DNA of 64,000 nt from Hyaloraphidium curvatum (lineage: Eukaryota; Monoblepharomycota; Hyaloraphidiomycetes; Hyaloraphidiales; Hyaloraphidiaceae). The notes beneath the pieces are model-generated. The model saw only the letters and a list, made by a program, of their open reading frames with translations. It searched no databases and was not told the origin of the DNA. Within the stretch, counting starts at the first letter, position 1, and each line of letters begins with the position of its first letter. The DNA is taken from positions 496,001 to 560,000 of the forward strand of contig JAIVFI010000015.1 in NCBI GenBank assembly GCA_025558095.1, read 5' to 3'. Below, piece by piece: positions 26,988-59,033 of the stretch. A program made the translations under genes and the position numbers.

Positions 26988-29900
26988 CTAAATCATCAAC
27001 GAGCCCCCTTCAATCAACTGCGCCACCGCGCTGGCACTGACAGAGTCATCGAAGTACCTGTTCGGCGCATCCGCGTAAGCTCGGGGACCAATCGCAATCG
27101 AAAATGACGCACTTAGCCCACGACACGTCCTCGCTGAGGCCTTTCCGTCTCCTGGTTTTAACCATGAAGTCGCGAGCAAGATGCTGCGCCGGCGACGGTT
27201 CCAAGGGTCTCAAGACAATCGATTTGTCGAGCGGATCCCCAGGGACAATCTGCCAATGGTCGAACACCTGCTGGCAGAACGCCTGTCCCTGCGTGTGGGT
27301 ACGGAGATCCGTCTCGAACCCGGCAGAGTCAATGACGGGGATTAGGGCCTTGACCGTGTATAGCGGCGACCCGGGTTTCGGCATGTCCTGGGTGACGTGC
27401 CCTCTGGAAGAGGTGCGTGAGCACGCGCATGTCGCGCCGCACGATCAAACACATACCTTCGTCGGCCGAGGACCGTGTATACGGCCGCGACGCAATCAGC
27501 TGGTGCCTGGATTTCGACGAAGAAGACCGGCTCCATCAGCCTTGGGGTAGCCTATTGATAGAATGAGTTCAAGAGCGCGTGCGTCATGGCGTGCTGACTC
27601 ACGGTGAGGAAAGCAGAGTAGCAGACGCGGCGTGCTGTGGGAATGATTTGGCCACCTCCCCGATATATCGGTTCCGGGGCAATCGCCGCGTCGATGAGTC
27701 GAAACTTGACGTTGCGAATCGCTGGGCAAGAGTCAGACGCGGCTTTCTGACGCAAAGCTGACCGCTCACGTTCGTCGCAGAGCGGCCCCTCGCGGGTCGC
27801 CCATTTGAAGCCCTGCTTCATGGAGTCCTTGATCGAAGTGAGCAGCTTCTTGTCGACTTCCGAAGGAAGCGTATCGTTGACAAGGATGTTTGGCCCTGCG
27901 TCGTCCGGTCCGAACGCCCAAATGTTCCGGGATGCGAGCAAATCCCACTGGTAGTTGTTGACAAAGAAATCGCCCAGCTGCTTGTTCGGCATGTCGAGAG
28001 ACACATTCCGGTTTTCAATGTCCTCGGCGATTCCCTTGTCGAGGGGCTCCGAGATCATCGTCAGCTTGTTCCTGGTGGACACATACGTTAGCCGGCGCAG
28101 CGTCGGAGCACGTGAAAGCTCACTTTTTGTTTGGCGTTTCCGCAAAGCACTTCAGAGCACTCGTCTCCACGACCGTCTCCGCAAACCGGACGATCGGATC
28201 CGCAACCTTGATCTCGATGTCCGAGTACATCCGGCGGAGGTCGTGAAGCACGCAGTCGAGGTAGAGCTCGCCGGTGCCCATGATGATATGCTCTCCCGAT
28301 TCCTCCACTCTGGTCTGGACCAAGGGATAGCTCTTGTTGATCTTCCGCAGGCCATCCAGCATCTTTGGCAGCTCCGTCGGGTTGACGGGTTCCACCGCGA
28401 CCTTGACCACGCTGGAGGTATTGAACCGCAGTGGCCGGAAAATGTACAGCGGCTCATCCTCGCTGGGAGCCGCGGTGGTAATGGTGGCCGTCTTCATGAT
28501 CGATGGGTCCACCCCTTCCACAAGCACCCAGGAGCCTGGCGGCGCGGCCGACATCTTGATCCGGTACCGCGACTCAAAGATGGAAATGCCCTCGACCGTC
28601 TGTATCGTCATGTCCTCCTCGTCCTCGGGGCTGTAGCCCTCGCCGAGGACGCGAACTTTGGATCCAACCTTCAAGGTACCGCTGAAGATACGGCCGAACG
28701 CGTCGAACCGCTTGTTGTCCTCCGAGTTGTAGAGCTTCACAACGTGCATCATGACAGGCCCTTCCGGGTCGCAGCGCATCATGGCTTCCGCGATGGCCGA
28801 GTCCATGGGGCCCGTGTAGATGTGCTCAACCTTTCGACGGAATCGTCAGCGAAGTCCCCAAGAAGGTGCGAGAAAACAACCACCTTCGTCCGCGCATTCT
28901 CTAGCGGATTCGGTGCAAACTTGGTCACCATCTCGACGAAACACGAAGCATCTCCCAGGAATTGCGAGAGAACCAGCTCGAGCAGGGGCTTGACATCCAT
29001 CTTCAGCTGGTGCGGTTTCAGGTACACCCCGAGAGAATCCAGCGTTGTCTTCAAGGCGTCAATGTCCTCGCCCAAAACCTGCGAAAAGATCTTGTACAGC
29101 GGCTCCAAGATGAAGTGCACAAAGGTCCGGACGCGCCCAGATTCGGTTGCTTTGCGAGTAAAGGTCCGCTTCTCCGTGTTGTAGAATATCTCGCCCCAGA
29201 GCCGCTTCGCGAACGCGGCAGTGTCGAAGCTCTCGTACGTCATGGCGTACAGTCTCGCAAAGGACTCGAGCGAGAAGCACCATCTCATAGTGGAGCACGC
29301 GAAGCACACGTTTCCCAGCTCGGGGGACACGCGCATGTCTTCAGAGCCAGAAGCGGAGCTGAAGGCACCAACCAAGTCAGAGCAGAATAGACACAACGAT
29401 GCCAAACCCACGAAATAATGCTGTTGACCTCTTCAATCGTGTGGCGGATCTTGAAGTACGCATCCGTCGGCGGGATCTTGAGTTCGAGCATCAAGCGATC
29501 GAGCTTGTTCACCACCAGAACGATCTTCAGCTTCTCGTTGATGGCGTGCCGGATCGATCTCTCCGTGTTTAGCATGACGCCCTCGATGACGTCCACAACC
29601 ACAACGGCAGCGTCCGAGATCCTCAGGGCAGCAGTCACCTCGTCCGAAAAGTTCACGTGGCCTGTCAACAGCCCATTAGGGCAACGAATCAAGCCTTAGA
29701 TGGGCTGACTAACCAGGCGTGTCAAGCATGTTCAGAAGGAACGATTTGCCCTTCAGATCCGGCAGAACGAGCGACATAGGCATGCTCTTGATGCTGAGCT
29801 CCCGGTCACGCTCGAGGTTGAGAGTGTCCGTGTAGCGAGCCTGCTGGAACGTCAAAATCGAGATGCAAAAAAGAGGCGAGGTACCGACATAGCGCTTCAG

Positions 29901-30583
29901 TCCCCATTTTGCCTCGTGTGTCTGCTGAATGAGCATGTCCATGAAGGTGGATTTGCCGTGGCCCAGATGACCGATGATGGCCACGTTGCGAACCAGTTCC
30001 GGAAAGTTGGTGAGATCGACGAGGTACCTGTTTGCGAACCAACTCTGAGCCCAAAGCCCGAGACCAAAGCCTACAGAACGACGAACTCTTTGTTGTACGT
30101 CGTGTACGGAAGATCCGGCTCCGCGACATGGAACTTCTTGATCTTGATTGGTTGGATGATTGGCTCCGTCAGCGGCTGTGTGTCTTCCTCCTGAACAAGG
30201 GCCTCCACGCCGCTTCCGTAAACTTCCTCAGCCGTCGGGTAATACTTCTTGTCCTCGTGAAGGATCACGGCCTGAGATGGTGCCTCTGAACCGACGCGGA
30301 ACGCGTGGGGCTCTTTGAGCCTTCGGAGTTGAACGTTGGGGGGCACCAAGATCCCACCATCGACCCGCATCCTCTGTAGGCCCATTCCAGGTCTATCGTT
30401 CGCCGGCTCGCCGCGCTCCTCGTCGGCCTCGTCCTCGTCGTAGGCCGCCGAGCGGCCCCCGGGCCTGAGAAGGGCATCGACGCGTCCGCCGAAGCTGTCG
30501 CCGGCTTCCTCCTCCTCATCGTCCAGGTCGGGGCCGATGTAGTTCCCAAACTCGTCCCAGTGGTCCGGATTTAACCCGGACAT
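26988..30583 (-). CDS. SNU114: Snu114/EFTUD2, U5 snRNP GTPase (about 11 exons)
   Basis: The EF-2-like GTPase of the U5 snRNP, which controls unwinding of U4/U6 and spliceosome disassembly. It starts with [20 protein letters not shown] and carries [15 protein letters not shown] and [13 protein letters not shown] as in the human protein. The G domain shows [20 protein letters not shown] and VNKLDRL. Later landmarks are [64 protein letters not shown] and [13 protein letters not shown]. About ten short introns interrupt it, for example after KRY, DTP, NARTK, TPNKK, SAFLT and LGRRR. The last exon encodes [14 protein letters not shown]. It looks complete, near 970-1000 residues. The 5' end is divergent from RAB6. 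Confidence 0.9.
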
Positions 30584-39572: not shown

Positions 39573-42500
39573 TCACGGGCGCTCGAGGCCAGCAGGCCTG
39601 TCGTTTGGGTCGTAGGTGTGGTTCTGTAGCCAGCGTGCCATGGCATGCTTGAAGATGCGGAGCATGTTGATGGCAGCGTTCTGGTCTCGACCCACGCACG
39701 CCAGGTTGCAAGGCCCGTGGTAGCACCACCTGTCACCCCTGCGACGAGCAAGGAGGATCAGGATACGGCAAGGGAAGAAGCAGGAGCGCGTCCGACACGT
39801 ACCACGGTTTGAACGTCGGTATCGACATCGGTGGGTGGAAGGGGGTGGGCTGCCGTCGGCGCTTGCGCTGGCTGCGGTTGTCGAGGCACCTGCGCGTATC
39901 GAGCATCACCGTCCCGCACTTGTGGTGAGTCTTGGAAGTGCGGAACTCGTTGAACAAGATCGGGAGCACGTTGTCCCTCCTCTCGAACTCGTTCACGAAC
40001 CGGCGGAGAGAAGCGCGCATGTGCCCCTTGATGTACTTCATCGATCCCGTCTTGGTCGAGCCCAACGAGATGATGAAGTGCACGGGCTTCTTGGGCGGTC
40101 CCGGGCCGTGCTCATCGGCCATGCGCTCCCGCCGCTCCTTCCGCTTCCGCTGCTCTTTGCGCTTCCGGTTCTTGCGCTGCGTCCTCGTCAGGGCGAGCTT
40201 CGGCGTCCCGGAGACCTTCATGGCAAGCAGCTCGTCCACCATCCGGATCACGCCGATCTGCGCCCCGCGGTAGTTCTCCAGCTTGTGCCGGGCAAACTTC
40301 CACTCGAACTCGACCATCTCGTCGAGGTGCTCCAGCCGGTACTCGGCCCGCTCGCGCACGCGCTGGTAGTCCGTCTGCCGCTTCGATCCGATCCCGTTGT
40401 AGATGTCTGCCATAGAGCGCCCGGCGGGATCGTAAAGCGACGTCGGATCGCCCGGCGGCTGCTGCGTCGGCAGGTCCTGGCTGGCCTGCCAGTTCCTGTT
40501 TGCGTTGCGCTGCGTGACGCCGATCTCCGAGAACCAGCGCTCCGGAGAGATCGAAAAGAAACTGTACTCGGGAGTCCCGTCCGAATGGACACCGCCCGTC
40601 TCCGACGCACACGTCAGTATGGTGTCGATGCCGGGATCGGCGCCGATCTCGCGGACGTCGATCTCGCCCGCGTCCTGTCGCTGGTAGAGCACCTCTGCCT
40701 CCTTGAGCGCGTCCACAGTCATCTTGCGGTTCGCTTCGGCGGCCCTTGCCCGTCTCGCAACGTCCTCGTCCTCGTCGCCCATCCCGTCGACGGCCCGCAC
40801 CTGGCTCGCGTCGTAGACGACCTTCGGCACAATCTTCTCGAACTTTACCGAGACGGCCACGCTGTCGCTCGCGATCGAGAAGGCAAAGGATCGAGGCACG
40901 TTCTTGTACTTGCTCTTGTCGCCGTCAGAAATGAGGTCGTTGATTTTGAACAGCCTCGGCCACGCTTCCCTCAGATGCGGCGAGGTTCGCTGGATGACAA
41001 AGTTGCCGTGGAAGAAGGTGACCTCGAAGTCACGGTACCGCTGCGGAAACAGCCGCTTCCACCGCTTCAGCAGCTCCCCGATGCACCGGTCGCTAGCAAT
41101 GTCGATGTGCTTGGGGGTTGTCGAGTACAAGGGGAGGATCGGCGAGGTGGGCGGCTCCGGATCGTTCCAGTTCGCCGGCCGCGGATCGGGCGGCGGCCGA
41201 GGCACAAAGGAGGCCGCGATCATGTCGTTCGTCCGCCGAATGAACCGCAGAAGGCGGTTCCAGTCATCGGGCGCGCCGTCCATCCCGTTGTGGACGATCT
41301 GCATGTGCCTCCGGATAGCATCAAGGATGAATGTTAGGAGCCGAGCCGTCCGCGCCGGATCCAAGGCCATCTGCGTGATGCCGCCCATCGATCGGAACTC
41401 CCACGTGCAGGCGCCGTTCGTGTTGACGAGGTTCCGGAGGCGCGCGACCGTCAACAGTTGAGGAGAGCCCGCGATGCCGATCTGGACCGAGTTCTCGATC
41501 TGGTGCGCCTGATTGTAGGTCCCCGTAATGTGGCGCATCAGCTTCTCCACCTCCCCCTTCCTATCGTTCCGGAACTGCTTTTGGACGGTCGGCAGAATGT
41601 CCGTGAGCGTCTCTTCGAACCAGAGCTTGTACTCTCCCTCTTTCGCGACGTAGAGGGAACGGTAGCGCGCGACGAGTTGGAGAATCTCTCGGATCAGGAG
41701 CACGGGCAGCAGAAATCGGCGTCCACGCCGCATTCCTGGCGTCTTGTACTCGTACTCGATCGGCTGATTGGCCTGGATGGCGGCGTTCATGCGGGCTTCG
41801 GTGATGAACCTATTGCCTCCATCTCCCGCTCCTTCGTTCCCGCTGAACGAGTAGATCCGAAGCTCCTTGCGGCGCGAGTGGGCTGCGGTGTAGCGGCTGT
41901 CGCGGAGGGCTGTGAGCCTCGTCTTCGGCAGCGCGACCGGTTGTCCATGCCCGTCTTCCGCCACTTCATCGTCGTCCAGGTCGAGGTCAACGCCCGCCGC
42001 CGGAGCGCCTCCTTCTGCCTGCGCCGGTTGTCCCTGCGCGGCCTGTCCCTGCGCGTTCCCCGGGTCCTCCTGCCCCTGCTGGGCCTCCGGCTGCTGTGCG
42101 GGCGCGGGAAGCCTCGGAAGCTCCGCCACCGTCTGCCACTGCAGCAGCGCAAAGTCCTGCTCGAAAGCGGTCTTGAAGTTGCGGTTGCACGCGCCCTTGA
42201 GGTACAGGTCGATGTTGTTCTCGTACTGTTTGTACGAGGAGTTGAATATCTGCGAGCACTCTTCCGAAAAGAAGCTGGGGACCATCCGGTAGGGCAGATT
42301 CTCTCCATCCTCGGCCTCGTTGACCGGGGCCGCGTAGAAGACGGGATACGAGAACCTGAGGCCGTCCTCGTAGGCGTCTGCGTGCTCCTCGTCCGTCGCG
42401 ATTAGCAGCTCCTTGACGGCCGGGTTCCGAACGATCGACGCGTCCGCCAGCTGCTTGCCGAGCCAGATCCTGATCGAGTGCACGAGGAAGGGCAACTGGG

Positions 42501-43262
42501 CCGCCAGCGAGGGCGAGCGGATCACGCGGAGCTCGCCCGTGACGACGAGCATCAGGATGCGGAACAGCAGCGTCTGGTCCAGCGCGGGAAGCCTCTTGTC
42601 CCAGTCCAGCCAGAGGGTGACCGCGTTCTCCAACAGCCAGCACGCGGCCACGCCACATTTGGTGAATTCGTCGGCAAGGGAACGGAAGACGGGAATCAAA
42701 GAAAGGTCGGCGCAGAGTGACTCCATGGAGGTCTTGATCGTGCTCATGACGGTCTTGACGTTCTCAATTCCCGCGGCCTCAGCCTTCTCCAACGTCTCCT
42801 TCTTGCCGGCTGCACGCGCCGACGGCTTGTGATTGGGGCACAACAGACTGTTGCTCCGCTGGTGATCCGTGCGACCACATGACGGGCACGACTTCACCGG
42901 AACTGCAGGCTGTTGAGCGGCGGGCGGCGGCTGCGCGGCAGGGGCGGCGGGCGGCGGACCTGAAGGTTGCGCAAGGCCTTGCGGCGGGGAAGCAGCGCCT
43001 TGGCGCTGCAGGTGGAGGGGAATTGGAAGACCGGGCGGGGGCCCGATGTCGCCACGGGTCAGAGGTTGCCCGAGATGAGCCGGAACAGGTAATCCCGGGG
43101 CATGCCGTCGAGCGGGAGGGGTTTGCTGCGAAGAGGAAGCAGATGTCAGGATGATTCGCGGGCTTGCAGTGCAGGCCACTTCACCAGAGGCACGTCGTCA
43201 CTCGGCTCCCTCTTCCTTCCCGACCGACCCCCGGCGAAGCCTCCTTGCTCGTCATCCATCAT
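39573..43262 (-). CDS. Fanzor nuclease A (TnpB-like RuvC effector), 3 exons
   Basis: A predicted RNA-guided DNA endonuclease of the Fanzor family. Exons on the minus strand are 43262-43185, 43125-39803 and 39738-39573 (1,188 residues, in phase). An N-terminal Pro/Gln-rich region carries a zinc-knuckle-like CPSCGRTDHQRSNSLLCPNH. The RuvC-I aspartate is in IGADPGIDTIL (about residue 856). A Glu in FNEFRTSKTHHKC (about 1085) matches the relocated catalytic Glu described for Fanzors. The RuvC-III aspartate is in GRDQNAAINM (about 1151), and that last exon is needed to complete the fold and the zinc finger (WCYHGPCNLAC). An Arg/Lys-rich stretch precedes the end of the nuclease lobe. An RG-rich open segment from 43894 may be an extra 5' exon; the phases there do not close cleanly. 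Confidence 0.85.
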
Positions 43263-49123: not shown

Positions 49124-49254
49124 GCCGAGCGAACATAGCTACACTCTCAGAAACTGCTACTGTGCCCCCTGTGCCGCAATCCTTTGCGGCCTAGCAGCAA
49201 TGTTCATCATCGAGCCTGCGAATAAAAGGCGGTCCCTGACGGACTCCACCTCGA
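49124..49254. other. 131-bp gap between Fanzor-B 3' end and transposase copy 1
   Basis: It is too short for a protein gene. It is a candidate position for the 3' end of the Fanzor-B module or part of a guide RNA; no fold was computed. Confidence 0.3.
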
Positions 49255-52200
49255 TCAAGCAAATGCAATGGCGCCCACGTGGTGCATGGCACGCCAACTT
49301 GTAACTGTTTCCGCGGCCAGGTCAGCTTGCCGGCTTGAGCTTCTTGACCGACCCATTCGCGGCGCTTGCGGCCGTACGCTTGCGGCCTGTGGCGGCACCT
49401 GGAGCTCCCGGATCAGCTCGGGATGACGCTCGGGATGACCGTCGCGAATGCGAGCGCGCTCACCCGCGGACTTGCGCGGCGCTGCACCAGTCCCAGCTCG
49501 GAGCTTGGGCTGCGGCTTCGGCTTCCTGGTGTCCGGCCTGAACGGCCAGGGGCGCTCCCCTCCGGTGATGAGGCCGAACCAGAAGAGGTGCTCCATGGAG
49601 TGCACACTGTTCACGTCGCGCATCCAGAAGCGGCGGCAGAGGGGACAGTATTTCACCCCGCGCACCTCGCCCTTGGAGCCGGGGTTCCGGATTCCGACGA
49701 CATAGGTGGTCTTGCAGCTGGAAAGGACGTCAGGCGAGTCGGATGATCACGGCGGCTGCCGCACCAGCTGCACATTTGGGACGTGAGGTACTCGTTGACC
49801 AAGACCATGATCCCGGCCTTGGCCAGCTCCGCCCTGAAGCGAACGATCCGGGAGGCCGGGCCGCCCTTGCTCGCATGGCCGAATCGCGCGGCGCCGTATG
49901 CGATGGTCGTCTGTGGATCGTACTTGCCCGAATACGGGTTGCGACACATGTCGCGACAGATCCAGCTGAGGACCTCGCGGCGCCGGCGAATCGTGCGCAC
50001 ACGATCCAGGCTGCAGGATGCGTGAGCGAAGTCGTTGCCACAGGGATTGGCTTGCCCACCTCCGTTCTCCGGAACAGTAGACGTCCAGGATGCGGTCGAG
50101 TTGTGGCAGCAGCGCCCTCGTGTAGTCCGAGAAGGCTGCACTGTTCGTTGTGCGTTGAGAGGGCAGGTCGCGCTCGAAATCGTGGAGAGACTTCTGCACA
50201 GGGTTGCCCTCGCAATCGTTGACGTCCAGCATGGTGGTCCGCTTGGTGGCATTCAGACGCGCGGCCGCCTTATCGTAGCCGCACAGGCGGCGGTCGAGCT
50301 TGGCCGGAACACCGAGGATGAGCTCCGGCAGCGCCGGGGTCCCCGCACGGCCGGCACCAGCGACCTCGCCCCACAGCTTGGCACCAAACTCGTCCGTGCA
50401 GCCGCCAGGGGTCGGGAACAGTTCGACGTTGCGCCGAGCGTGCTTCTCCGCCTTTGCAGCGTCGTTGGGGCGCGAATCGGGCGCCGGCGGCTTGAACTCC
50501 GAGATCTTGGGCTCCCAGAGCGGGTGGTGTCTGCACGCTCCAGCGGCAGGCGGCGACGGACCGAAAGACCTTGCGATCCGCTTAGTATCGGAGCAGGAGT
50601 GCTCTAGGTGGAAGCCGACGATCCTCCCGAAGCTGACGGAACCGTCGGCCTTGGACGGGTTCGCCCGCTTCGGCACGTAGTGCGACTTGGTGCCGTCGGC
50701 ATTGGTCACGGTGATGCGCTCCGTTGTCCCCGGCAGATGACTGTTGGCGAAGTCGTAGCGTCCGTTCGGCCCGGGGTTCAGGCTCTTGGCAACGATCCGC
50801 ACGTCGACGCGGCGGTTGGCAACAGCCAGAAACCAGCGATTCGGATCCACGTCGACGACCCCGCCCTCCACTGGCTCGCCGCGCTCGGCCCGCTCGAACA
50901 TTTCCGCCTGCGTCGGCATGTGCAGGAGATTGGGTGCCAGCACGGACACATGGTCAGGGCGGCTGAGGTAGTAGACGGGAATGCCAGTCTTGAAGTCGAC
51001 CGGGGGCCGCGGCAACGGCTCGGCAGAACGCGGCGGGAGCGGAACCGGGGTCGGGGCCAGCTGAGGAGGTACGGGGGCAGCGAACTTGCCCTCGACCGTT
51101 ACCGTCGGCGGCGACGGTTCGACCGCGCAAACGACGACTTCGGGAGGGAAGCAAGAAAGGAAGGGGGAAGGAAGTGGCGGCGAGAAGTCGGGGAAAGGAA
51201 GGGCCGCGCATGGATGCACAGAAGTCTCGGGCACCGAGTCACCGGGCGAGACAGTCGCGCAGGGAGGGTCGTTGTGCCCCGAGCTCAGGGGCGCGAACAC
51301 GTTGGGCGCACAGTCCACGGCCTTGCAGGCGGCATCTTGACAGCACGAGCACGGGTCGTGCACCCAATGCGGGGGCGGTTCCGGGGGAATGGAGGCAGGG
51401 AGAGAAGTCGAGGCTGGTGGTTCGACGAAGGAGAAAAAGGGCGGGGGTTCCGGCGGGACCGCGGCGGGGATGCCGCAGTCCGCCGGAGGCTCGGAAGGCA
51501 TGGTGGTGAAGTTAAGGTTGCTGCTGGCACAATAAGAGGGCTCCCAATCCATCGGGACCGATTCGTCCCCTTGGGCCGTCGCCTGCAGGTAGTAGACCAT
51601 GCCCCCATGCCAAATCCGATTCTGGCCTGGAAAAGTGAGGATCCGATCAGCCTCCGAACCCGTGCGTCACTGAGCAAAATGCCCACCATCGAAGACAGCC
51701 ATGTCGCACGGCGGGTCCGGATCGCCGTTTGGCAGCCATGGACCGGTGTAGAGCGGCGGGTAGGGATCCATCGGAACATCGCGAGGGAACGAAACATCCA
51801 CTTCGAAAGCAGCAAGACCGGCGGGCACATGAGCTGCGGCGGGAACGGAGACGGTGGGCCGAGTTTGAACAGGAGGAGCCGGCGCGGCTGCTGGCGAATG
51901 CGCTGCGCGCTTTGGCGGCTCGACGTCCTGTGTCGTGTTTTGCCGCTCCTGCTGCTGCGACTGCTGGAACGAGACCTTTTCCACGAAGGAGACTTCTTCG
52001 TTAAGAATGCCCAGGGTGCTGCCGCAATGATAGATGCCCCGGACGCCGGAGTACCTCAGAACGTCCGCGGTGCGACGATAGATGGGCTGCGTGGCGGCGG
52101 CATGGCCCCTGGCCGAGACTTTGCCCTGCTGACGGAGGCGGAAGAGCCGGTCCTCGTTGACGAGTTGGTTGCCGCCGTTGAGCAGGTGGCCGAATAGGTA

Positions 52201-55200
52201 GTCCGAGTCAACGCGCGAGGTGTCGATGCCAGGCGCGACCTCCACGCCCAGCTTGGACAAAAACTCGGGCAGATCCGAGGCCGAGATGTAGACGGTCACG
52301 GGGGACAAGCTGATTTCGGCGACCGCAGCCCGAAGCTTCCGCCGCGCCCACGAGGCTGCCTTTTCCTTGCCGGTCTGGGCGGCGCCAAGCCCCGCCATCG
52401 CGGCGGCGGCGGCCGCCTTGCGCTCCCGCCGCTTCGTCTCCATGGTCTCCTTCTTGGCGAGTCCCTCGGGCCCCGGCTGCGGTCGGCGCTTACGGAAGCT
52501 CACGACGAACCCGTGCCATCGCTTCGGGGAGCCATTCTTGCTGTAATGCCGCTTCTCGACGCGGTGCGGCCGCCACGTGTTGCGGGCCCTCCTGGTCTTG
52601 TTCGAAGCCTCCCTGTCCTTGACCGGAGCAGTTGAAATGGTTGGGAAAGTTGGGGTTGAATCGGGGTCCCTGGCGGTGCTCGTCCTCCGCGCCGTTCCAG
52701 GTTCCGGCAGTGCAGCAGCCGCGGACGCGGCCCTCTTCTTCAGCGCCTCGTCCTGCTTTTCGAGCTCGTGCAGGGCGATGAAGCACATCTGGAAGCCGAA
52801 GGCTTCGTCCGCGGGGTTCGTGGATGAACGACACTTGTCGAGGTCATACTCGCTCATCCGCGCCACCAGAAGCTTCTCGCTTTCCCAGTGGGGCCGGTTC
52901 TGCCCCACCAATGCCGCCGCCGCCGCCTCGTTCATGTCCTCGGCGTGCTCGGGGACCCAGAACTTGGGTTTCTGCTCTGTCGACCGAATCGTTGCCGTGG
53001 TCACGGCCGGGTAGCGGAAGGGGATGCTCCGAAGCTGTAGACGGTTTGCAACCACCCAGTCCCTCAGCTCCTGCAGCTCCACCTTTCGCAAGTCAGCCTT
53101 CTCCGCAGGTGAGGCCCGCGGCAGCGTCTCCCAAATGTTCTGGAGGTAGCTGCGCACCGCCTCCGTTTCCGCGTCGACCTTTCCGCGCGGCTTGCCCTTC
53201 GGCAGGTTCACGGTTCGCACCGCGGCCGCCACGGGGTTGCCCGCCTGCTTGTCCTGCAGGACCCGAGCGATAACCCTCCGCTGCGAAACGGTTGCCGGCA
53301 CCGGCGGCTTCTGTTTTGAATCCCGGAGGTCAACGATCCGGTTCAGCTGCAAGCCTCTGAACGGCCGGAGGAGCCTCCCCAGCCCGACCCTGAGCTCCGT
53401 GGCCTCGGCGAGACCACAGCCAAATGCGCTTTCGAACGGGAAATTGGAGAAGTCGTCGTCCCCATATCCGAGCTTTGCCAGAGCGTAGCTGAGGATTGGG
53501 CCAATCCGCCTCCGGCCGACGCCCGCGTTCACCTCCCCGCGTAGGAAGCGACGGATGAGAACCTTGAGCGCAGTCAGCAGCCGCTGCGGCACGCTTCGAG
53601 CTCGGTTGAAAGCGACCTGCTCGGCATAGCGGAGCAAAGGTCCCTGCACGAAAAGCGGCCTGAGCTTGTCGTACGTCTCGCCCACAAGTTCCCGCGCCTC
53701 TGCAAACGCAGCAACGGCCGCCTTGCGGACAAGCTTTGCCGCTGCGTTGTGCTCCGCGACGGTGAGAACGGACGGTGCGCCCTGATCAGCAACCTGCGAG
53801 AGATCGGGGGTGTCCTCAGCCGTAACCAAGTCCTCGTCCTCAATCTGATCCAGCTCGCCGTGCAAGAAGTCGGCCAAGATCTTGGCGCCGGCCTGGTCCT
53901 CGGCCATCGCGTCGTCATCGTCCTCGAAGTCAACGTCCTCGAGCACCTCGTCTCGATCGTCGTCGTTGGCTCCGAGGTCCGGACCGCCGTCCACAAGCTG
54001 CTCCACTCCTGGCGCCCCCGAATGGCCCGAGTATCTCGCCCCAGCACCGAGCCCGGCCGACTTCTGCTTTCCCGCGCGGCGGGTTCCAACAGCGGCGGAC
54101 ATCTGGCCGGCACCAAGCACGGCGTGGATGGCAATCTTTGCGACGTAAGACGGGGGAAAGCTGGCGAGCATGTCCTGCGTGACGGATCCGTCTTGGTCCG
54201 GGAGCTCTTTGTTGTGGATCTGCAACAAGATCTTGGTCCAGATGATCTTGAATAAGATGGCGGCGAGGGTGCAGGCCTTGGTGATGAGGGGCCCGACTTG
54301 CTCGTACGGGCCCCGCGCCCATGGGTGGCACACCTCGGCCGCCGGGAACCACTTGACGGCCAGCTCCGTCATCGTCTTGTATCGCTCGTGCTGGGGGTCG
54401 CCAAGTGCGAGGAAGCCGTTGAGCGCGACCCACCGCCGCTTCGGAGAGCACTCCTGCCGGTGCCTCCCGCCACCGGCGAACAGAAAGGGCAGGACGAGCC
54501 GCCGAGGCCCGTAGGAATGTTGGCTTTGAGGTTTGTCGACGCGAACGGGACAATGTAGTGTGCGTTGGCAATGAACTGGCCGAACGACGTGGTGAGATTC
54601 CTTGGGGCGACCAAACTGTCCGCGGCGGCGGTCAGCTTCGCATCGGTCCCAGGCATGCATGGAAAGCGCGGTGCAACTCACGCCCCACGGTGGTTCTCCT
54701 CGACATGCTGCCGGAACTCACTCTCGAGGTCGAACTGATGTCCCTTCCCCGGGCACGCTCTGCAGGTGAGGTGCGCACCCTTGACGTGGTGGAGGAGCCG
54801 AAGCTCGGCGTCATAGACACGCTCCCGCGCAGCTCCGTCAGCCACCATCCCCGACGCCGCGACCTTGCGCCGCCGCCCAGCCTTCGCCGGGACTTCGCCT
54901 TCCACCTGCACACTGAAGGAACAGAGCGGACAATCCCGCTTCTGGATACGGCCGAAGTCCAGCAGTCCAACGGATTCCGCGTGGAAGTGGAGCTTGGCGT
55001 CGAGCGCGGTGCGCGCGGCCTCCTGCCGTGCTTCGGGGTTGCTACCGCGCACCAGCGCGGGCATACCGCACAAGTCCAGGGTAAAATCGCGCATCTTGGG
55101 CCCCGACTCCAGCAGCCGCAGCGTCACCATGGAAGAGTGTTCCCACCCGAGCTGCTCCGCCTTCAGGAACAGGGTTGCCAGCAGCTTATCGCCCTCTGCA

Positions 55201-55253
55201 TCCAGTCCAGGTACGCCCGGGCTCATCTGGAAAAGGCCCGGGAACGAAAGCAG
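49255..55253 (-). CDS. Fanzor nuclease B, predicted 3' part of a transposase-Fanzor fusion (exons 2-7)
   Basis: Exons on the minus strand are 55253-54682, 54615-54474, 54390-51687, 51626-50060, 50010-49765 and 49717-49255. All six junctions are GT-AG with matching phases. The first exon has C2H2-like fingers (CPLCSFSV; CRACPGKGH...FRQHVEENH). A middle acidic stretch precedes a long helical region. The RuvC-I aspartate is in VVDVDPNRWFLAVA (about residue 2172 of the fusion). IAYGAARFGHASKGG and VNEYLTSQMCSCC (Glu near 2508) follow, then CPLCRRFW and the RuvC-III aspartate in RDVNSVHSM (near 2549). The zinc-finger cysteines only pair up after the 47-nt intron 49718-49764 is removed. If not fused, the start would be an internal Met. 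The fusion join is described under the transposase entry and findings. Confidence 0.8.
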
Positions 55254-57626
55254 CTGCCGGGGCAAAAATCAGTTTGGGATTGCGGGGCTGCTCGACAGGA
55301 GATTGCACACCAGCACGGGAACGGAACCCGGATTCTCGATGGCGAGGGCCTCCTCGTTGGCCGCCATCGGGTTCCACACCGCCCAATCGAAGAATCTCTT
55401 GCGCCCTTCCGCATTGCGACTCGCCACACTATCCGGCAAACGCGCCGCCATGACTATCTTGCATCGCTGCGGGAGGGAGAGCGAAGCAAGGAAGTACTCC
55501 AGGCCGGGCGACGCATCAAAAAGCGAGCGGCCCTGCTGGTCCTTCAGCGTGCGGCACGCTTCCTCCAGTATCTGCCTAAGGTTCCTTGGCAGAGACTCGG
55601 TCGAAGCCGCGCGTTCGAGGTACTCCAACCGACAGACCTTCGAAATGGGCTGGTGAACATAATGCAGAGCACGACGTGCTGTCTCGGATGTTTCGAAGCT
55701 GTCCATGCGTGCCCTCCCGGCCGGGCCGAGCTGTCCCCAGAGAGAAACAGCGAGCGCACGTAGCCATTCTGGTCCACGACCGTTTCGTACAAGGCCCGAT
55801 AGGAGGATGGCGAACCTCTCGTCCAGCACGGTGTCGTTTGCAAGGGCTGAGAGCGGAAACAGCTGTTTCAACGCGGCGCGGCTGGCTTTCTTGAACGAGA
55901 CGTTAAGTTCCGGTGGGACGTCGGCATAGCGGGCGAGGTTATCCAGCTGGGAGATGGAGACGTCGGGGGCTGACGGCGGTCCCAGATCCGCGCCATCGTC
56001 CGCGGGGCGGAAAAAGGGGGGTGCCGGTGCGTCTGGTCCGATCAGACTGGGGGCGACCCGGCGCCGCCGGGCGACGATGTTCCGGAGGCGCGCGACGAAA
56101 AGCTCGCGCTCCAGCTTGTACCCCCGACCCGATGCCACCCGCTGACAGATGAACTCAAAAGGAGCTTCACCGAGGTTGGAGAGGCCCCCGAGGACGTCCG
56201 CAGCGTCGAAGCCCGCGGTCCTTTGAGCGGAGTCCGTGAAGTCGTTCCACGGCCCAAAGAATTCCCTCGCCGAACCATCGACGTGGAGAACTTCCCTCAG
56301 GATCAGCAAAGTGTGCTTTTGGTGCGGGTTGATGTGGGCGACGCCGAGGTTGCGAGCCTGCTCGGAGTGGGCGTTGTCGTGAGTCAGCGCGGTCTGCATG
56401 CCCGATGCGCAACCGTCATGGCAGTCCACCTCTTCAGCGAGCCGCTCGGCCGCGTTTGCTTCGGTCTGGGTCGCTGCTGCGCCCTCCATCGCGGAAGGGC
56501 ACGTCTGAGGAGCCGGAGAAGCAAAGGCAGAGATCTGACCTTGTAGTGTGACCTTCCGCGCCACACATTTGCCGGCGGACGCGGATTCCGCGATGCGCAC
56601 AAACTCAGCCTCGCTTAGCTTCAAGCAGTGCCGGAACGTCGCCATCAGATCGCCGTGGCCGACGATTTGAATGGCCCTCTCGATGGACCGGACGAGATCC
56701 GGCACCGTCCTGGGGCAGTCCCGCCTCACGAGGTTCTTGATCGTGGCAAACACGTACTCGGTCGGGTTAAATTCCGGCGATCTCGGTCGCAGGTAGATGA
56801 GGCTCAGATTGTTGGCCTTTGCTACGGCCTGGACCGCAAGGAACGACTTGCCCGAGAGGTTCTTTATTATTGCCGTGCCGTCCGTGGTCTTCCTTGCCCG
56901 CAGAGGAGAGCCGTGGAAACCCGCATTGTCCAGGATAACGCCCAGGGACTCGGACCCACAAGCCCCGGCGCGAATAGTCTTGAGAAAAGCACAGAACCTC
57001 TCGGTGTTCATGTTGCCGCTGTAGATCTGGTACGAGATCACGTTTCCAGTGTGATTACCGGGTCGCGGAGTGGGTGAGATGGCGAGGCAAAGGGTCACCT
57101 TGGGGCCCCGGTTCCCTGGCAGGTATACGACGGCGGGAGTCCCCTTCTCCGAGTAGCCGAAGCGCCCCGGATCGTTGAGTTGGAATGAGGACTCGTCCAA
57201 GGCACCTAGGCGCCCCAAATCAAAGGAAGTGACCCTCTCGTGGAACATGCGGTGCCGCTCGGGTTGTTTCAGGGCTTCGGCGCTCTTAATGGTGAGCTTC
57301 TTCCTCGTGACCCTGTTGGCCTTCAGCAGCCGCGAGATATGCTGCTGCGACACCAAAACGCCAAACTTTTCCGCCAGGTCAGCAGCGAGCTCCCTTTGCG
57401 TCACGCGGACGCGAGCTTTGGCCTCGTCAACTACGTGCCGGACCATTTCCTCGGACACCTTGCGGAAGGCCTTGCGGGGATGGTCCGGAACGGTCTGAGC
57501 CCCACATCGGCGGATCCAACGGAAATACGTCGTTCGGTGAATTGCGAGTACAGCAGCAATCTCGTCCGGGCCAAGCTTGCCGGTCTGCTTGAGCCGAACC
57601 GCGGTTTCTGGCCCGCTCAGAAGCAT
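55254..57626 (-). CDS. Intact IS630/Tc1-type DDE transposase with extra C-terminal domain (first exon of predicted fusion)
   Basis: A DDE transposase for cut-and-paste movement. Unspliced, the frame is 785 codons, ending at 55269. A helix-turn-helix occupies the N-terminus (IAAVLAIHRTTYFRWIRR), with a second near VSQQHISRLL. Catalytic residues are D144 (LDESSFQLND), D233 (ILDNAGFHG) and E290 (PEFNPTE). The D-E spacing of 56 is longer than the usual ~34-35 because of an insert after the second Asp. Residues ~330-772 are a domain I cannot name, shared with copy 1. A 57-nt intron (55254-55310, GTGTGC...CAG, phase 0) would skip the stop codon and join this exon in frame to Fanzor-B, giving a 2,669-residue product. 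A TATA-like element (CTCATATAAG) lies upstream near 57800. Confidence 0.82.
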
Positions 57627-58216
57627 GTTTTGGCCGTGCCGTTCCCCGACGCGACGCAGGAGGCACCACGCGCCTTTTGCGATGGAGACTGTGCTCTAGC
57701 GGTTGCAAATTCGCACGCGGCGACTCCGGCAAGCTCGAGTAGCGGGACCTGTGTGTGAAACGACAGTAAAAGTAGGGGGGAGTAATAAGTCCCTTATATG
57801 AGCCTCTAAGGTCATCCGCTCACGGTGTGACCCGATCTCCCAGCACACGCGACCTTGGACCACGGGAAGCTCGGCAAGGTGATTATCGCCGGCCTGCGGG
57901 GCCTGCCGGCGAAGGGAGGAGACGCAGGAGATTCTGAGGGAGGCCGGGGCGCGGCGGACGGACGGCCGGAGGGGGCCGGAGGGGGCGGAACGCCGTGTCG
58001 GCCGGTCGAGGAACCTCTCGCACCACTGCCGGGACTCTCTGGGACGCGGAAGCCGGTGGGCGGGCGTGTTCTTGGACCGCGTCGCTGACGGTGTTTCCTC
58101 GGAATCGGCTCTGCTCTGTTGGACACCTGCCCCGCTTCGCGCCTGCTCCACCTGCGACTCCCCGCCCCTGCCCTGCGCGCCGGCCGCCGACCTCCACACC
58201 CCTCCTCAAACACCAG
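57627..58216. promoter_or_regulatory. Divergent region between the transposase and ribosomal protein eS10 gene
   Basis: Read on the minus strand, a CTCATATAAG sequence near 57800 is a plausible TATA box about 175 bp upstream of the transposase start. The part before the eS10 ATG is pyrimidine-rich, as is common for ribosomal protein genes. No gene is seen. Confidence 0.5.
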
Positions 58217-59033
58217 ATGCTCATCCCGACCAAGAACCGCAAGGCCATCTACGGCTACCTCTTCCAGGAGGGCGTCGTCGTCGCGCAGAAGAACTTCAAC
58301 GCGCCCAAGCACCAGGACATCGACGTGCCCAACCTGCAAGTGATCAAGGCGCTGCAGTCGATGCGCTCGCGGGGCTACGTCAGGGAGCAGTTCAGCTGGC
58401 AGTACTATTACTACTTCCTCACCGACTCGGGGATCGAGTACCTGAGGGAGTACCTGCACCTGCCCGTCGAGATCGTGCCCAAGACGCACATCAAGAGCAA
58501 GAGCACGGGGTTGAGGCCGGGGCGTGAGTGTTTTGCCGGGGAGGGATCCGTGAGGCGTGCGGGCGTTGGTTGGCGGGCGTGTGAGGGTCGGCGTTGTGGG
58601 ATGAGATGAGACCGCCGGTGCGGATACCGGCGAGGTCGGCTGCGCCGGCACGCATGCCGGCATCGACGCCGACACCGGTGCTGCTCTTCCGCATCCTCGA
58701 GTGCCCGCACGCACGTCGGGAGCACCCGCGGCCATCGGCCCCGCACGCACGCACGGCCCCTTCGCACTCGTTCCACATCGGCACCAACTGAACCACTTCC
58801 CCCTTCTGCAGAGGAGGACCGCCCGCCCCGCCGCGACGGCGACCGCCCCTTCGGCAGGCGCGAGGACCGCGAGGGCGGCTACCGGCGGCGCGAGGGACCC
58901 AAGGAGGGCGCGGGCGGCGAGTTCCGGTGCGTACATTGCGGCTCGTTCGTGCACATATTGTGCTAACGCGGTGTGCCTTTGTCTGCACAGGCCGTCGTTC
59001 CAGGGTGGTGTGGGTCGCCCGAGACCCGAGTAG
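58217..59033 (+). CDS. RPS10: Ribosomal protein eS10 (3 exons)
   Basis: A 40S subunit protein of 154 residues. Exons are 58217-58523, 58812-58926 and 58991-59033, in phase. The family signature opens the protein ([20 protein letters not shown]) and continues through [36 protein letters not shown] and [17 protein letters not shown]. The C-terminal tail is Arg/Gly-rich, as usual. The first intron is 288 nt, long for this window. Long first introns are common in ribosomal protein genes of compact fungi and may help expression. Confidence 0.92.

Follow-up and report, generated by a model that had tools for sequence, protein, structure and literature searches.

A DDE transposase and a Fanzor1-like nuclease predicted to be joined by splicing in a DNA transposon of Hyaloraphidium curvatum

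The stretch of DNA studied here is a 64,000-nucleotide window of the genome of Hyaloraphidium curvatum (C15:496001–560000 of a 32-Mb assembly in 55 contigs; window GC 64%). It contains a transposon, here called family A, which we read with a probability of about 0.8 as a DNA transposon of the IS630/Tc1-mariner type with one long spliced gene. The predicted product is a fusion that begins with a helix-turn-helix (HTH) and DDE transposase, continues with a tail, two zinc fingers and a long middle region, and ends in a Fanzor1 RuvC nuclease. The fusion is well supported, as it follows from the order of the exons, the position and phase of the introns in four families, the catalytic residues and the open frames. 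The element and the parts of its gene are, in window coordinates:

49136..57763, reverse strand: whole element of family A, found in 10 copies; the boundaries are the points where unrelated copies diverge
55311..57626, reverse strand: exon 1, residues 1-772, HTH and IS630-type DDE transposase, then a tail of about 420 residues
55254..55310, reverse strand: intron 1, 57 nt, phase 0, with an in-frame TGA at 55271-55269
54682..55253, reverse strand: exon 2, in which the middle region begins, with two zinc-finger-like motifs
54616..54681, reverse strand: intron 2, 66 nt, phase 2, also found at this place in families B, D and E; its branch point is CTGAC
51687..54615, reverse strand: exon 3, CxxC...H...C knuckle and long middle region
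51627..51686, reverse strand: intron 3, 60 nt, phase 1; also found at this place in family B
50060..51626, reverse strand: exon 4, proline-rich linker, then the beginning of the Fanzor RuvC core
50011..50059, reverse strand: intron 4, 49 nt, phase 2; also found at this place in family B
49765..50010, reverse strand: exon 5, Fanzor part that holds the first CxxC and the rearranged RuvC-II Glu
49718..49764, reverse strand: intron 5, 47 nt, interrupting the Fanzor zinc ribbon; also found at this place in family B
49255..49717, reverse strand: exon 6, second CPLC, RuvC-III Asp and a poorly conserved C-terminal tail

A DDE_3 search of the assembly gives ten near-identical loci of family A, and a search with the Fanzor part gives the same ten, five loci of a related family B and two single relatives. 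We compared the nine sisters of the window copy (L012–L020), the five B copies (L021–L025) and two decayed, single-copy families, E (L026/L034) and D (L027/L035):

C2:391000-408999, reverse strand: family E, apparently a decayed DDE-Fanzor fusion with a middle frame of 1,374 residues
C2:424000-442999, reverse strand: family D, apparently a decayed DDE-Fanzor fusion, in which a single 980-residue frame holds the middle and RuvC parts

The nine sisters are 99.7–99.9% identical to the window copy over 8.63 kb. Between families A and B the identity is 63% for the DDE domain, 56% for the Fanzor core and 35-36% for the middle region. In A, B, D and E alike the parts are ordered on one strand as DDE, tail, two zinc fingers, long middle and Fanzor.

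In the window the transposase frame seems to end at the TGA in intron 1. This stop would most simply be the branch point of a short intron, because it sits at the same place, nucleotides 40–42 of the intron, in A, B, D and E, and each time within a branch-point-like motif: aCTGATt in A, gCTGACg in B, cCTGATg in D and cTTGATg in E. The junctions formed by the splice are …PVL/LLSFPGLFQ in A and …PAL/PLTFYEIFQ in B, at the same place (B intron 59 nt), and …VFVP/ARTLQEC in D (60 nt) and …AFVP/AQTIEEA in E (59 nt), all in phase 0. Thus the intron has the features of a spliceosomal one: GT-AG ends, a branch point and a conserved position and phase. The motif YTNAY is found 12–29 nt before the 3' end in all 16 introns examined, where shuffles give 6 and none of 2,000 reaches 16; the stricter CTRAY is found in 13 of them, compared to 1.6 from shuffles, and again none of 2,000 reaches that number. 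As a control from the host we used a gene in the window with a GTP_EFTU match, which we take to belong to the SNU114 family:

29440..30020, reverse strand: SNU114/EFTUD2-like host gene, intron control with YTNAY branch points

Its GT-AG introns, 29888–29844 (45 nt, TTGAC) and 29713–29662 (52 nt, CTAAT), are of the same kind. Readthrough of the stop codon was rejected as an explanation: the upstream and downstream frames differ in B and E, and in B readthrough is impossible because the splice shifts the frame.

Could the frames instead be two separate head-to-tail genes, joined in frame by chance? This is the usual arrangement, as the known Mariner-Fanzor1 elements encode separate proteins (PMC3627910), and for any two frames there are several GT-AG pairs that would join them: near each junction there are 3–4 such pairs of 45-70 nt. 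However, a good donor, a YAG acceptor and a branch point are combined in exactly one pair in each of the four families, and this is always the homologous one, with the same position and phase 0. Further, in B, D and E the first in-frame ATG lies about 42-68 codons beyond the start of the conserved exon-2 sequence, so that a second gene with its own ORF (open reading frame) would leave this sequence untranslated. All four families have a homologous exon between introns 1 and 2, in which the pattern CxxC…H…H, CxxC…H…H does not vary, and a profile comparison of A/B with D/E aligns across this exon (E 2e-6). Intron 2 is also common to A, B, D and E, in phase 2, and five introns are common to A and B in both position and phase. 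Two separate genes are therefore improbable. The in-frame splice had been proposed in a preliminary description of the window; it stands, on the homologous phase-0 intron and the open ORFs described below, while the length and the third intron given there do not.

That description had proposed a 2,669-residue protein from six introns. Its reading frames, the TGA, all splice coordinates and the arithmetic were reproduced, and the recomputed six-intron join has 8,010 nt with a terminal stop only. Five of the introns (55254-55310, 54616-54681, 51627-51686, 50011-50059, 49718-49764) match family B in position and phase. The sixth, 54391-54473, is plain exon in the nine other copies and aligns with exon in family B, with the motifs GD..HER, WF and HPWA in common. 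It was rejected, as it merely skirts a 1-nt deletion of the window copy: nine of the ten A copies have an extra T beside window position 54481 (alignment column 3285), and with this T the 83-nt stretch 54391–54473 reads through as exon. Because the nine sisters carry the T and read through, the reading frame is shifted in the window copy. The correct gene model contains five introns, and intact copies encode 2,697 residues. The window copy, which had been assumed to be functional, thus carries a deletion of 1 nt, unless the assembly is wrong at this point, and, as far as its sequence tells, cannot make the proposed protein; at most it would depend on intact sister copies. The Fanzor had also been placed directly after the stop. 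What follows there is the zinc-finger and middle region, and the RuvC core is more than 4 kb downstream, at about 50991-49534.

Seven A copies encode 2,697 residues. Another, L014, encodes 2,640 after an in-frame deletion of 171 nt, and L019 is frameshifted and truncated at its 5' end. In family B a 2,622-residue ORF is open in four of the five copies. Among the seven intact A copies there are 26 nonsynonymous and 18 synonymous substitutions and no stops, while the neutral expectation is 2.66:1; the ratio lies about two standard deviations below this, which modestly suggests purifying selection. These data bear on whether the open frames are coincidental, in dead and recently amplified copies. 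The frameshifts in the window copy and in L019 and the decay of D and E agree with such a view. We nevertheless consider it very improbable, as the frame is open throughout in 12 of the 15 A and B copies (8/10 and 4/5) over about 2,600-2,700 codons, the protein is conserved between A and B, and the DDE and RuvC residues are intact.

The two enzymatic parts can be recognized from profiles and motifs. When the joined translation is searched, DDE_3 and a TnpB-type zinc domain both fall within one protein model. DDE_3 is matched at residues 143–302 (window 57200-56721) with an E-value of 2.8e-14 and 53.6 bits, compared to a cut-off of 28.6, and the NCBIfam IS630 model (NF033545) gives 127 bits at a cut-off of 100. 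The catalytic triad, D144, D233 and E290, is invariant in A, B and the DDE part of another element, family C, described below. With its HTH and DDE_3 and an IS630 equivalog score above the cut-off, the transposase is like those of IS630/Tc1-mariner elements. The second Asp and the Glu are usually about 34 residues apart in this group. In family A the spacing is 56 residues, and unlike in these transposases about 2,350 more residues follow downstream.

For the nuclease part, the RuvC-I Asp is found in DPNR (codon 50847-50845), the rearranged RuvC-II Glu in NEYLTSQMC (codon 49793-49791) and the RuvC-III Asp in RDVNS (codon 49617-49615). The Pfam domain PF07282 (TnpB/Cas12f zinc domain) is matched at residues 2525–2581 with an E-value of 4.6e-5; family A scores 23.9 bits against a cut-off of 26.3, and relatives D and E score above it. 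Fanzor1 proteins are defined by the order D...[TS][TS]XX-C4 zinc finger-X(5,50)-RD (PMC3627910). The same order is seen here: the D of DPNR, TSQMC, CSCC...CPLC and an RD five residues past the last Cys. The distance from D to TS is about 337 residues, beyond the published 125-275 (PMC3627910). In Fanzors the RuvC-II Glu is rearranged and precedes the zinc finger by six residues (PMC10711439). This Glu is present in NEYLTSQMC in A and B and in HEHGSSQKC in E, with E391 invariant in alignment A2.

Between the two enzymes lie two CxxC...H...H zinc-finger-like motifs (about 54932-54690), conserved in A, B, D and E, and a middle region of about 1,300 residues without any Pfam match in A or B. The long middle region probably includes the N-terminal half of the Fanzor. 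In family E it gives a weak match to an OTU-like cysteine protease (E 0.03). Together with the great length, the modular layout and the low-complexity linkers, this match would fit a polyprotein, which is translated as a fusion and then cut into transposase and Fanzor, so that no single enzyme holds both nucleases. We regard this as doubtful, since the OTU match falls short of the Pfam cut-off and Pfam detects no such match in A or B.

The copies of family A part ways at 57763 and 49136, which gives an element of about 8.6 kb. Its left end is TCGTTTCACACACAG at 57763-57749, with TAGTTTCACACACAG instead in three copies; across the A copies the left terminus has the form T(C/A)GTTTCACACACAG. Read inward from 49136, the right end is TAGCTACACTCTCAG. 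Terminal inverted repeats are thus present, about 15 bp long and imperfect, with 11 of 15 bp paired in copies that start with TA. A variable 5' truncation, as would be left by retroposition, was rejected for three copies, in which the 5' terminus is present beside small deletions in the untranslated region (UTR). A genome search with exon–exon junctions for processed, spliced copies gave no match.

A short block near the right end is conserved between the families:

49224..49260, reverse strand: 37-nt block GCTTGATCGAGGTGGAGTCCG...GGACCGCCTTTT, 34/37 identical in family B

The block overlaps the stop codon in A and lies within the non-coding 3' UTR in B. It can fold as a hairpin followed by a U-run, although the z-scores for folding, −1.7 and −2.5, are modest. 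A 16-nt core of it is found without mismatch only at the 15 A and B elements, and an Rfam search with the block gave no match. Because an omega-RNA is expected at the 3' end of the element, the block is a candidate for a part of it.

From these parts a possible mechanism can be drawn. Using the short inverted repeats, the DDE part would excise and insert the element. An RNA made of the 3' end and flanking DNA would guide the Fanzor part to cut the empty donor site, and repair of the cut site would copy the element back. Such re-cutting of the donor site to restore the element has been proposed for TnpB (PMC10432273). If the two parts are fused, their activities would stay with the same element, in equal dosage and co-localised. 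We infer that intron 1 is efficiently removed and that the fused protein is uncleaved. The full picture remains tentative, and we put it at somewhat less than an even chance: a single uncleaved enzyme with a DDE transposase and an active RNA-guided RuvC, with the guide in its own 3' UTR, ancestral to at least four families and coupling excision to re-cutting.

Several observations weigh against the fusion and this extension of it. The fusion is a prediction from genomic sequence. The middle region resembles no known fold, and an AlphaFold model of a part of it has a mean pLDDT of 39, too poor for a structure search. The searches for relatives outside the source genome, made in viral contigs with Fanzor, middle and DDE profiles, found none. 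When the ends of A and B are compared there is no consistent target-site duplication across copies: nine A copies have TA at the 3' end, yet six have TC at the 5' end, and a TA duplication was not seen in the family B copies. Further, the RuvC-I motif DPG is described as found "near exclusively" in Fanzors (PMC10711439), and A, B, D and E all have DPN. Because of this wording the label is kept, and by its sequence the nuclease is Fanzor1-like with a divergent RuvC-I.

The last points of this kind concern intron 1 itself. Its first 42 nt are alike in A and B at 25 positions, while four other introns have 10–18 of 42. If the intron is retained, the protein gets a short tail that ends at the stop, VCNLLSSSPAIPN in A and VSNVLASSSSILG in B, and these tails are similar to each other, with a BLOSUM score of 24 and 6/13 identities, a score equalled by 0.24% of shuffles. 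This would be expected of a regulated gene with two products: with intron 1 retained a 785-residue, DDE-only protein ending at 55269, with intron 1 spliced the fusion, and the ratio of the two controlling transposition. The position of the TGA in all four families agrees with this as well. The P element offers an analogy only, in that a retained intron with a stop would truncate the protein; the transposases are unrelated. Still, the branch point accounts for the TGA, the tail is not common to D or E, and branch-point TGAs in or near frame are also seen in other introns. A two-product gene is therefore rather unlikely.

The fused gene can be compared with known systems. In the Mariner-type Fanzor1 elements PGv-1, PUl-1 and relatives, transposase and Fanzor are separate proteins and there are TA target duplications (Bao & Jurka 2013, PMC3627910). 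Family A is like them in having a 5' DDE transposase, a Fanzor1 in the same element and terminal inverted repeats. It is unlike them in its one spliced ORF of about 2.7 thousand residues, its extra zinc-finger and middle regions and the lack of a consistent TA duplication. With Fanzor1 nucleases such as SpuFz1 (PMC10432273; Yoon et al., PMC10711439) it shares the C-terminal RuvC, zinc ribbon, RD motif and rearranged Glu. In contrast to these it has DPN instead of DPG and about 337 residues from RuvC-I to the zinc finger, forms the C-terminus of a predicted transposase fusion and is itself a predicted nuclease. No report of a DDE-Fanzor fusion was found in the literature searched, the coverage of which is incomplete. 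The fusion is thus a variation on the known Mariner–Fanzor1 elements, whose proteins are separate, and its being without precedent is not established.

How TnpB and Fanzor nucleases serve transposons is an open question, as the proteins are usually separate and the partner of a Fanzor often cannot be identified. A gene that obligatorily makes both together, with intact copies at hand, would make the partnership directly testable, and would also be a natural model for programmable nuclease–transposase fusions.

Three other features in the window are of interest:

39733..43197, reverse strand: second Fanzor, with a canonical DPG, in a frame of 1,154 residues
46199..49138, reverse strand: family C, a fragmented copy of another IS630-type DDE element
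57938..58609, forward strand: exon like that of ribosomal protein eS10, recognised by eye

The DPG-type Fanzor begins with a CxxC...C knuckle that resembles the middle region of the fusion. It has two further close copies (on C7 and C21) and a family of four at 32-44% identity (on C18, C2, C12 and C20); several of its genomic copies lie in long frames. Among the matches listed there is no DDE_3 match near its copies, so it is not shown that every Fanzor here is fused. A divergent Fanzor-type zinc domain in single copy (L010, C5:336026-336172) likewise has no DDE_3 nearby among the matches listed.

The DDE domain of family C is 46% identical to that of A and is followed by a tail of about 450 residues, which has no detectable homology to the tail of A and B; other copies are L028 and L029. 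The family A element ends a few bases from the start of this copy. On the other side, the eS10-like exon lies in divergent orientation just upstream of the 5' end of the family A element.

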